From a candidate division WOR-3 bacterium (GTDB lineage Bacteria > Hydrothermota > Tepidihabitantia > SM23-42): a DNA stretch of 48,183 nt. The notes beneath the pieces are model-generated. The model ran no database searches, had not been told where the DNA came from, and was given only the letters and a program-made list of their open reading frames with translations. Positions within the stretch are counted from its first letter, which is position 1. Every line of letters starts with the position of its first letter. Position numbers and translations under genes: made by a program. Location of the stretch: positions 1 to 48,183 of the forward strand of contig JAOUFJ010000020.1 in the NCBI GenBank assembly GCA_029858255.1, written 5' to 3'. Positions 37,373-42,267 of this stretch are shown piece by piece.

Positions 37373-37400
37373 TTGACATAACGTAGTGTTTTGCTATAAT
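37373..37400 (+). promoter_or_regulatory. Promoter of tRNA-Thr
   Basis: TTGACA (37373-37378), 16-bp spacer, TATAAT (37395-37400). The mature tRNA starts at 37408. Both hexamers are perfect consensus. Confidence 0.85.
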
Positions 37401-37407
37401 AGAGCGC

Positions 37408-37480
37408 GCCAGCGTAGCTCAGTTGGTAGAGCAGCGGTTTCGTAAACCGCAGGTCAGCAGTTCGATTCTGCTCGCTGGCT
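37408..37480 (+). tRNA. tRNA-Thr (anticodon CGT)
   Basis: A 73-base cloverleaf. Acceptor stem GCCAGCG/CGCTGGC, D arm GCTC-AGTTGGTA-GAGC, anticodon stem GCGGT/ACCGC with loop TTCGTAA (anticodon CGT reads ACG), variable loop AGGTC, and T arm AGCAG-TTCGATT-CTGCT. The discriminator base is T. CCA is not encoded and would be added enzymatically. Confidence 0.93.
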
Positions 37481-37707: not shown

Positions 37708-38697
37708 CTACCAGAAATGCCTGTCTTCACGCCCTTTGTGTGCCCACGCAATTTGCTTGTCGATATGGCGGACTAATGAAAAACATATTGGTCTAAAATA
37801 TCTTAGCCAGAACGCACCCGCTAAAATATTCTCTCCTTCGAAATCAACTGCACATCGTTCGTAGTCCTGTGATTGAATCCATTCTAGTGACTGTTTTAAA
37901 AGAGCAGTACCTATTCCTTTTCCGCGCATGTGTTCTTTTGTATATGCACCTTGTATCCACACTGTTTTTTCATCAGTAATTAGATAATCTTCATTGATCG
38001 GGCAGATTTTCATATATGCTACTGCCTGTCCATGGTCTAAGGCTAGCCAAATCGAGTGCAACGGGTCTGAAAGCCATTTTTCATGATATTCTTTGCTTCT
38101 TTTTTCTGTCATCGCAACAAAAATCGGCGGCCCAGCCAAATATCGCGCTAGTTCGTGATCCAGTGACACAATCACGTCCAAATCATCGAGGGTAGCGAGC
38201 CGAATCTCGACGTCTATGGCAGGACATTGGATGTTTCCAAGATCACGCATCGCGTCAACTACTGCCATTCCGAAACCAAGCCAAAACAGTGTATCAATCA
38301 CTTCCTTATCGTGCGCAAGCCCGGTTATAAGATGTGTAAAACAACCATTGACGATCCATTCGGACGAGATATACGCATACATCTGTTGATAAATCTTTTT
38401 TCGGCTTTCGCCTTCTCCAGAGTGCGCCCAGAAAGGAACAAAAACACCCCGTCTTCCTCTCCATGAAAGAAATAATTGTCCAATAAGATATCCGGAGATT
38501 CTTCCATTCTCTATTGCAACTACACCAGGTGTTTTTTTAATTTGGTCACGGAGCAAAGGTACTACTGCACTACAATCCTCGTACCTTGGCGGTAGAAGGT
38601 GCATATGTTCTCGTTCCAATCTATAACGCTTTGCGAACAGTATTGCTGCACCTTCGATATGTTTCTCTTCAAATGGTTCTATGTTACAGAATGACAT
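37708..38697 (-). CDS. GNAT-family N-acetyltransferase, probable two-domain
   Basis: A 329-residue protein. The C-terminal GNAT domain is clear: IRLATLDDLDVIVSLD, AYMKICPI, and the acetyl-CoA motif GAYTKEHMRGKGIGTALLK followed by WIQSQDYERCAVDF. The N-terminal ~150 residues look like a second, degenerate GNAT fold (VVAIENGRISGYLIG, LFWLGFGMAVVDAMRDL). Substrate is unknown. ATG 38697 is preceded by AAAGGAG. The gene lies downstream of a promoter, a 19-codon ORF and an intrinsic terminator on the same strand, so read-through of that terminator would be needed unless an internal promoter exists. The gene lies next to tRNA-Thr and could have been acquired. Confidence 0.82.
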   Translation of the reverse strand: MSFCNIEPFEEKHIEGAAILFAKRYRLEREHMHLLPPRYEDCSAVVPLLRDQIKKTPGVVAIENGRISGYLIGQLFLSWRGRRGVFVPFWAHSGEGESRKKIYQQMYAYISSEWIVNGCFTHLITGLAHDKEVIDTLFWLGFGMAVVDAMRDLGNIQCPAIDVEIRLATLDDLDVIVSLDHELARYLAGPPIFVAMTEKRSKEYHEKWLSDPLHSIWLALDHGQAVAYMKICPINEDYLITDEKTVWIQGAYTKEHMRGKGIGTALLKQSLEWIQSQDYERCAVDFEGENILAGAFWLRYFRPICFSLVRHIDKQIAWAHKGREDRHFW

Positions 38698-38761
38698 TTT
38701 TACTCCTTTTATTATGGTTGAAACAGCTTACTTCAATCACCCAATTGACGATTTAAGCAAC

Positions 38762-38783
38762 AAAAAACCGCCCTTGCAGGCGG
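38762..38783 (-). terminator. Intrinsic terminator between a 19-codon ORF and GNAT
   Basis: Minus strand CCGCC-TGCAAG-GGCGG (38783-38768), extendable by a U-G pair closing a GCAA tetraloop, followed by TTTTTT (38767-38762). It is the clearest terminator in the window. It lies 64 bp before the GNAT start. Confidence 0.85.
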
Positions 38784-38809
38784 CATTGATGGCATATCAA
38801 ATAACTACT

Positions 38810-38869
38810 TCAATATCTAATCCGCCTGAGGTATAAATTCAGGGCTATTCCTTTTATCGCATCTTCCAT
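38810..38869 (-). CDS. 19-codon leader peptide or microprotein
   Basis: ATG 38869 follows a strong GGAAGGAGG Shine-Dalgarno and encodes MEDAIKGIALNLYLRRIRY, then TGA. A consensus promoter lies about 50 bases upstream and an intrinsic terminator starts 26 bases after the stop, so the unit is complete. The bases CAGGCGG, spanning its Leu-Arg-Arg codons (38828-38822), are exactly complementary to CCGCCTG in the 5' arm of the terminator (38783-38777). Pairing would form an antiterminator. It thus looks like a leader peptide controlling the GNAT gene by attenuation. The alternative is a free-standing microprotein gene. No homolog is known to me. Confidence 0.65.
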   Translation of the reverse strand: MEDAIKGIALNLYLRRIRY

Positions 38870-38919
38870 AACTATACCTCCTTCCAAGGCGAATTAGCTC
38901 ATACCCCTTGATTAAGTAC

Positions 38920-38947
38920 ATTATATGGCAAGCCAACAAAATGTCAA
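38920..38947 (-). promoter_or_regulatory. Promoter of the 19-codon ORF/GNAT unit
   Basis: Minus strand TTGACA (38947-38942), 16-bp spacer, TATAAT (38925-38920); both hexamers are consensus. Confidence 0.85.
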
Positions 38948-40953: not shown

Positions 40954-42267
40954 TCATGCCCGTGCCAGAACTACCACCCTTCGTGCATTTTCAATGTTCA
41001 TTAACGCTGCTATGGCAATTAGGGCCAACGCGGGCTGATTAAGTACACCACCAAGGAAAATAATGAAAATTCTCAGATCACGACCAATCCTAAAATGTCG
41101 ATTCCCTTCACTTCTCATCAGGCTGTCATATTTATCTGCAGTATAACTGTTGATTAATGAACCGATTACTGCCATAAATCCAATAATCATAATCACGGGA
41201 TTGCTGATGACCTGATATGTGTGATAAGTTAGACTGAATAATAAAAAGGCATCGGCGTATCTGTCAAGTACAGCATCAAACCAGCCGCCGAACTCTGTTT
41301 CCAGGAATTTTAGTCGCGCAACCTCACCATCGCAACCATCAATGATTGAGGCGACCTGAGCAAGAATTGCTCCGATTAGGAGGTTCAAGTATCCCTTATG
41401 AAAAAAGAAGAATGCACCAATGATGGAAAGGAAGAAACAAGTTAGCGTAATGGTATTGGGCTGAATTTTGGTTTTCAAAAGAATTTTTGTAATTTGACCA
41501 GATATCGGTCTGTTTATGTATCTTGATACGAATCCATCAGACTTTTTATTTACAAAAACATTTACCAGATGTCTCTTGGCCTGTTTCAGTTTTACCTCAT
41601 TATCTACATCAATCCAGTAATTCCCACTAACGTCACAAACTCTAACCTTACCCTTTTTGGCTAATATCTCAATACCGCCTGATAGGGATGTGTCACCCCT
41701 CTTGGAACTTTGTTCAATTGCGTTGAAGATTGCGGGCGTACAGAGGAATATTCCTGTATCATAGGCATCATACTCTTTAAGATTTTTGCCGATATGCAAA
41801 ATCCTTTTGTTTTTGATAAACACTTTCGTGACATCTTCTTCGTCAACAAAATAATTTACTTTAATATTAGAATCTATTGCTAAAATGACTTCATTATTAT
41901 TTATCCTCTTGTTCTTCAGTTTTGCGATAATTTTCTCATCGAAAATATGATCACTCATCAGGAGAATGAAATTACCATTTATAATATCCTTTGCCTTCAG
42001 CACTGATATTCCATTTTCCTTTCTCCATTCATCATTATGCAGACAAGTAATTTTTATGTTTCTTTTTTTACTGAAGGTTTCTAAATAGTCGCGGAGTATT
42101 TGGCCGCGATAGCCAGTCACCACATAAAATTCTTTTAAGCCGACCTTTCTGGCGCGTAGTATAACCCTCGCGATAAGCGGCATTCCCATTAATGAAGTCA
42201 GTGGTTTTGATCTTGATTTTGAAGCAAGTCTTGCACCTCGTCCTGATGCAATTATGAGACATTTCAT
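40954..42267 (-). CDS. Bifunctional inositol-1-phosphate cytidylyltransferase / CDP-alcohol phosphatidyltransferase (IPCT-DIPPS type)
   Basis: A 437-residue fusion. Residues 1-230 are a nucleotidyltransferase: LIIASGRGARLASKSRSKPL, VVTGYRG, LLMSDHIFD. Residues ~245-437 are a membrane CDP-alcohol phosphotransferase with the signature DGCDGEVARLKFLETEFGG then FDAVLD, and five or six spans. This fusion is the known enzyme pair that activates inositol-1-phosphate with CTP and transfers it, in Archaeoglobus, Thermotoga and relatives, to make di-myo-inositol phosphate, a heat-stress solute. Other members make inositol phospholipid precursors. Which applies here cannot be decided. Base composition is richer in A+T than in the left half of the window. 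It is a single-gene unit. Confidence 0.82.
   Translation of the reverse strand: MKCLIIASGRGARLASKSRSKPLTSLMGMPLIARVILRARKVGLKEFYVVTGYRGQILRDYLETFSKKRNIKITCLHNDEWRKENGISVLKAKDIINGNFILLMSDHIFDEKIIAKLKNKRINNNEVILAIDSNIKVNYFVDEEDVTKVFIKNKRILHIGKNLKEYDAYDTGIFLCTPAIFNAIEQSSKRGDTSLSGGIEILAKKGKVRVCDVSGNYWIDVDNEVKLKQAKRHLVNVFVNKKSDGFVSRYINRPISGQITKILLKTKIQPNTITLTCFFLSIIGAFFFFHKGYLNLLIGAILAQVASIIDGCDGEVARLKFLETEFGGWFDAVLDRYADAFLLFSLTYHTYQVISNPVIMIIGFMAVIGSLINSYTADKYDSLMRSEGNRHFRIGRDLRIFIIFLGGVLNQPALALIAIAALMNIENARRVVVLARA

Follow-up and report, generated by a model that had tools for sequence, protein, structure and literature searches.

The window analysed here is the whole 48,183-nucleotide stretch of DNA from a candidate division WOR-3 bacterium. 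Its minus strand carries a gene for a 329-aa tandem GNAT acetyltransferase (37708..38697, ATG at 38697), the putative regulated gene, behind a candidate attenuator leader. The leader starts at a promoter of the form TTGACA-16-TATAAT (38920..38947), which matches the consensus at 12/12 positions, with TTGACA at 38947-38942, TATAAT at 38925-38920 and a 16-nt spacer when read letter by letter. Downstream on the same strand lie the 5' arm of an outer stem, CUAAUUCGCCU (38887..38897), a Shine-Dalgarno site, GGAAGGAGG (38885-38877; 38873..38885 with the following UAUA), and a short ORF, MEDAIKGIALNLYLRRIRY, of 19 codons plus TGA (38810..38869). The last codons of the ORF form an anti-Shine-Dalgarno arm, UAUACCUCAGGCGGAUUAG (38817..38835), which contains CAGGCGG, also the 5' arm of the antiterminator. 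The intrinsic terminator, GCCGCCTGCAAGGGCGG followed by six T, occupies 38762..38784, and its U6 ends at 38762. Reading the minus strand letter by letter confirmed the place of every element listed in an initial annotation of this DNA, and CAGGCGG (38828-38822) is, as claimed there, the exact 7-nt complement of the terminator 5' arm CCGCCTG (38783-38777). That annotation had named a separate promoter between 38762 and 38697 driving the GNAT gene as a challenge to its proposal; no promoter-like site was found there on the minus strand. By plain MFE, the 221-nt leader is of ordinary stability (z -1.15).

The C-terminal domain of the GNAT matches Pfam Acetyltransf_1 (2.8e-13), and its closest relatives recovered from named records are mostly WOR-3 MAGs. 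It scored 28.5 bits against the AAC(6') aminoglycoside acetyltransferase family, for which the curated NCBIfam cut-off is 140, and is not assigned to that family. The structure model resembles several tandem GNATs; its confidence is only moderate (pLDDT 63.7), so these matches were used solely for the label "tandem GNAT". Both a drug and a ribosomal component are possible substrates. Two other features of the window are recorded here. A perfect TTGACA-16-TATAAT promoter with a TG extension stands directly 5' of a tRNA gene on the plus strand (37373-37480), convergent with the GNAT gene, and the minus-strand gene at 40954-42267 encodes a protein like the bifunctional inositol-1-phosphate cytidylyltransferase/DIPP synthase of the Thermococcales kind, under the curated cut-off, which suggests synthesis of an inositol-phosphate solute or lipid.

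The Shine-Dalgarno segment and the stretch just 5' of it form helices with the final codons of the ORF (GAGGUAUA/UAUACCUC and CUAAUUCGCCU/AGGCGGAUUAG). In the MFE fold GAGGUAUA (38880-38873) pairs with 38835-38828, and the outer arm pairs with 38827-38817. This pairing is a classical anti-antiterminator that overlaps the leader ORF. The leader therefore has three competing pairings, 1:2 between the Shine-Dalgarno segment and the late codons, 2:3 between the late codons and the terminator 5' arm, and 3:4 the terminator itself, which completes a three-way switch of anti-antiterminator, antiterminator and terminator. The initial annotation had described a two-way switch; its antiterminator and terminator are present, but it had missed the pairing of the Shine-Dalgarno segment with the last codons. 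Scanning 1.15 Mb of strand sequence for a short ORF whose late codons pair with the Shine-Dalgarno site and which is followed by a terminator returned 3 loci, all of this leader family, and the same scan of shuffled sequence returned zero. The architecture of the window leader is more than chance.

A survey of 147 genomes from the phylum gave four further leaders of this design, which we call LRR-type after the Leu-Arg-Arg codons, two of them in other genera of the window's family and two in more distant members. The leader in genome G010 (MKVKKVAIIMMSCLRRICC, before rsgA) was the one relative found by a DNA search of 61 genomes, and that in G012 (MTMIAKIESAMSWSYLRRTVH) was found by a GNAT search, before a GNAT 51% identical to the window's and adjoined by the N-terminal half of RsgA. 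Both have a TTGACA promoter, GGAGG, an ORF ending in CCTCAGGCGGA and a terminator. A covariance model built from these two and the window leader matched MKVKTTRTNVRSHLIRVRC in G138 (E 2.6e-4), before a methyltransferase gene, and MHARIEILVLSRPGSIGC in G074 (E 0.0027, on loci found independently via RsgA), before a methyltransferase-rsgA pair. TTGACA stands 5' of all four, the ORF lies in the same place with 18-21 codons across the five leaders, and 43-48 nt separate GGAGG from the anti-Shine-Dalgarno arm in 5/5. The targets are always a tandem GNAT, RsgA GTPase or methyltransferase gene. The check proposed earlier, a search for the leader in related genomes, turned up the same design in four, with differing peptides, and nowhere was the leader peptide found by itself.

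A second covariance model, built from all five leaders, gave no further convincing member in the 147 genomes. Seven genomes of the same genus had neither the leader nor a close relative of the window GNAT, and GNAT homologues in Clostridia and Chloroflexota had no leader by model R1 or by inspection. Viral contigs gave chance matches only, both to the GGAGG/CTCAGGCGG layout and to the AGGAGGYTTC/GAAGCCYCC pattern. One leader-like match, MSGIRDSSLRRLRSE (L102), was set aside as it precedes another gene.

Some neighbouring features of these relatives were also recorded. The RsgA gene of G012 is split into two halves separated by more than 1 Mb (C1:2220483-2220950, minus strand, and C1:958487-958945, plus strand), with a masked stretch beside the first, reflecting either a rearrangement or an assembly error. 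A 154-aa ORF with no Pfam match lies 5' of the G010 leader (L046:3208-3672) and is possibly part of the same accessory region. In G012 (L029/L047) and G074 (L108) the first terminator is followed by another terminator-like hairpin. The 5' arm of this second hairpin is a repeat of the Shine-Dalgarno segment (AGGTATGACC; GGCGTGAC) and complements the late-codon arm; a complementary stretch as long arose in 0/2000 and 28/2000 shuffles, respectively. In these two the late codons may disarm the second terminator too, as tandem attenuation; the window leader has no such hairpin.

The effect of a ribosome was modelled by masking its position during folding, ending the transcript at the terminator 5' arm and reading the antiterminator probability for each position. 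For the window this was 0.03 with no ribosome, 0.88 with one at the start codon, 0.66 at codon 2, 0.95 at codon 9 and 0.00 at codons 11-20. With no ribosome, a start-codon ribosome and a late ribosome the values were 0.49, 0.99 and 0 in G010, 0.62, 0.99 and 0 in G012, and 0.78, 0.98 and 0 in G074; the antiterminator of G138 was weaker. Dinucleotide shuffles matched the start-codon value in 0/200 cases for the window, 5/200 for G010, 0/200 for G012, 0/200 for G074 and 4/200 for G138. On full-length RNA at equilibrium, a start-codon ribosome lowered the terminator from 0.93 to 0.00 in G010 and from 1.00 to 0.24 in G012, the only two leaders with an equilibrium switch. The G138 terminator was kept whatever codon the ribosome occupied, and the first terminator of G074 was disfavoured already without a ribosome (0.02). 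The window terminator, more stable than those of G010 and G012, stayed at 1.00 even with a start-codon ribosome, so switching there would have to be kinetic, with capture of the 5' arm before the 3' arm is made. The mutual exclusion of terminator and antiterminator proposed earlier agrees with the 7-nt complement, with the predicted capture before the 3' arm and with values above those of shuffles.

From these folds, the gene is expected to be on when a ribosome is held at the first codons and off when one stalls at Leu-Arg-Arg. The proposal that ribosome position decides read-through draws support from the comparative evidence, the same layout standing before related genes. It needs two amendments. 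One is the added anti-antiterminator described above; the other is that the Leu-Arg-Arg codons do belong to the antiterminator, but a stall there would lead to termination, and read-through would need a ribosome near the start codon.

This bears on whether the leader could be a macrolide-type arrest leader, with RIR/LRR acting as a +X+ arrest motif similar to the MRLR of erm, mef and hflXr leaders, and drug arrest switching the gene on. R-I-R in the window and R-V-R in G138 do resemble the RLR motif of the hflXr (PMC6310831) and mef (PMC4335068) leaders. However, a ribosome arrested there would cover the antiterminator arm, at the very codons where the folded antiterminator is lost, and the motif is missing in G010 (RIC), G012 (RTV) and G074 (SIG). 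Three genera share the nine bases CTCAGGCGG without change, synonymous positions included, which points to a constraint on the RNA; the LRR codons look conserved as RNA and not as an arrest peptide. We regard a +X+ arrest leader as unlikely.

The leader could also be a free-standing small RNA or small-protein gene upstream of a GNAT gene expressed by read-through or from an unseen promoter; its promoter, ORF and terminator would make a complete small transcription unit, and the terminator is stable at equilibrium. That explanation is quite unlikely given that all five LRR-type leaders stand directly 5' of GNAT, rsgA or methyltransferase genes, that their peptides are poorly conserved, that the gap between terminator and GNAT has no second promoter that we could find, and that the complementarity of the terminator 5' arm to the leader codons exceeds that of shuffles. 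Towards its end the ORF has three Arg codons (AGG CGG AGA), which recall a trp-like attenuator sensing charged tRNA-Arg, but they lie within the antiterminator arm and not 5' of it, so that starvation would favour termination; the last part of the G074 leader carries a single Arg, and the downstream genes (GNAT, RsgA, methyltransferase) are not of Arg metabolism, which makes this very unlikely. Least plausible of all is a metabolite riboswitch or ribosomal-protein leader in which translation plays no role: alternative structures and a terminator do precede the gene, but all Rfam families fell below threshold and relaxed thresholds gave sub-threshold matches only, the conserved parts are the Shine-Dalgarno site, late codons and terminator with no aptamer-like core, and ORF length and Shine-Dalgarno spacing are kept.

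The anti-antiterminator also shows compensatory changes, its helix being rebuilt with different bases in G138 and G074 (window GAGGUAUA/UAUACCUC, G138 GAGGUGUGA/UCACACCUU, G074 GGCGUGAC/GUCACGCC). Slid controls pair far less than these arms. A covariation check had been suggested in the initial annotation, and its outcome depends on the set: the permutation p was ~0.01 with nine leaders and 0.018 with a reduced set of seven, but with only the five LRR-type leaders the test was not significant (p 0.10).

A second type of leader, like MSDERTRTDSWKPPLAPA, precedes rsgA or rsgA-GNAT in other WOR-3 genomes (G028, G032 and G044) and also stands ahead of rsgA-GNAT in one Coatesbacteria genome (L093). 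Here GGAGGUUUC pairs with the codons GAAGCCUCC, so that the Shine-Dalgarno site is sequestered as in the window type, and the rsgA start itself lies inside a hairpin (UCCAGACUGUCC/GGACAGUUUUGGA). This type is probably a translational attenuator with a Pro-Pro motif. The leader peptides 5' of rsgA at L110, L111, L112 and L093 (DSWKPPLAS / DSWTKPPVAS) look unrelated to those of the window type. G056 has a variant (MSESTRPAQDNPAKPLRALT), and a pattern search of the 147 genomes for the second type returned, besides chance or palindromic matches, three leaders, each in front of rsgA; rsgA of G053 and G063 has no visible leader. With both types standing before rsgA and GNAT genes, one set of genes is served by two leader switches that work on similar logic. 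Only 9/147 genomes of the phylum gave strong RsgA homologues, and so rsgA behaves there as an accessory gene.

Altogether the window leader is, with good probability, a cis-acting ribosome-mediated transcription attenuator; we infer that its ORF is translated and that termination happens in vivo, and likewise the inducing signal and what the GNAT does. The strong promoter would transcribe a leader with an ORF of 18-21 codons. If the ORF is untranslated, or freely translated with the ribosome gone, the Shine-Dalgarno segment would pair with the last codons, the terminator would form and transcription would stop at 38762. If an inhibitor or ribosome damage blocks initiation or early elongation, a ribosome held on the start or first codons would occupy the Shine-Dalgarno segment, CAGGCGG would be free to capture the terminator 5' arm, and the polymerase would read into the GNAT gene.

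RsgA, a 30S subunit assembly GTPase, is normally viewed as a housekeeping 30S assembly factor. Because the same switch stands before rsgA, rsgA-GNAT or methyltransferase genes in relatives, the genes under its control look like an accessory response to stress aimed at the ribosome, and antibiotic tolerance is one possibility. A broader reading, which we offer tentatively, makes these leaders an undescribed attenuator family, found in uncultured phyla, in which the leader's own Shine-Dalgarno site serves as the anti-antiterminator arm. Such a family would respond, regardless of peptide sequence, to ribosomes stopped at initiation or within the first codons, and would control an accessory rsgA/tandem-GNAT/methyltransferase cassette that protects or repairs the small subunit against an inhibitor. 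With these leaders, ribosome-mediated attenuation of translation-stress genes would reach into candidate phyla that only metagenomes have revealed, and RsgA would be linked to inducible stress control beside a tandem GNAT and methyltransferases. The leaders also predict which ribosome states activate the genes, and could be used as reporters in laboratory strains to find the inducing inhibitor and the function of the cassette.

The window leader shares with attenuators of the hflXr, bmrB and erm(K) kind a promoter, a Shine-Dalgarno site and a short ORF 5' of an intrinsic terminator, an anti-antiterminator that overlaps the ORF, and a terminator and antiterminator predicted to be mutually exclusive. 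Like the Listeria hflXr attenuator (rli80; PMC6310831), it has a short ORF within the anti-antiterminator, an antiterminator and an intrinsic terminator, and in both systems a target is a GTPase acting on ribosomes. With a mutated start codon the Listeria system could not be induced, and mutants of its anti-antiterminator showed constitutive read-through (PMC6310831). That leader differs in its 14-aa RLR arrest peptide, where the peptides here have 18-21 aa and no shared arrest motif; no sequence relation was found, the target genes and phylum differ, and the on-state here is predicted at the start codon. Macrolide attenuators of the mef(E)/erm(K) type (PMC4335068) likewise have a promoter, AGGAGG, a short leader peptide and a terminator before a resistance gene, but theirs is an MTASMRLR-type peptide with a stall at its end, and here the Arg codons are the antiterminator arm. 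The bmrB leader of B. subtilis bmrCD (PMC4191407) also forms three alternative stem-loops, requires leader translation and senses ribosome inhibitors; unlike the window leader it has 53 codons and an ABC transporter target, and belongs to the Firmicutes. The toiL uORF of E. coli topAI-yjhQ senses several classes of translation stress via stalls at different codons (PMC12121999). It acts on translation and Rho termination with no intrinsic terminator, unlike the window leader, and is closer to the second leader type (rsgA-GNAT). Searches of an open-access library turned up no account of a leader of this sort ahead of rsgA or a tandem GNAT, and the leaders make up a new, apparently undescribed family within a known kind, ribosome-mediated transcription attenuation as in Listeria hflXr.
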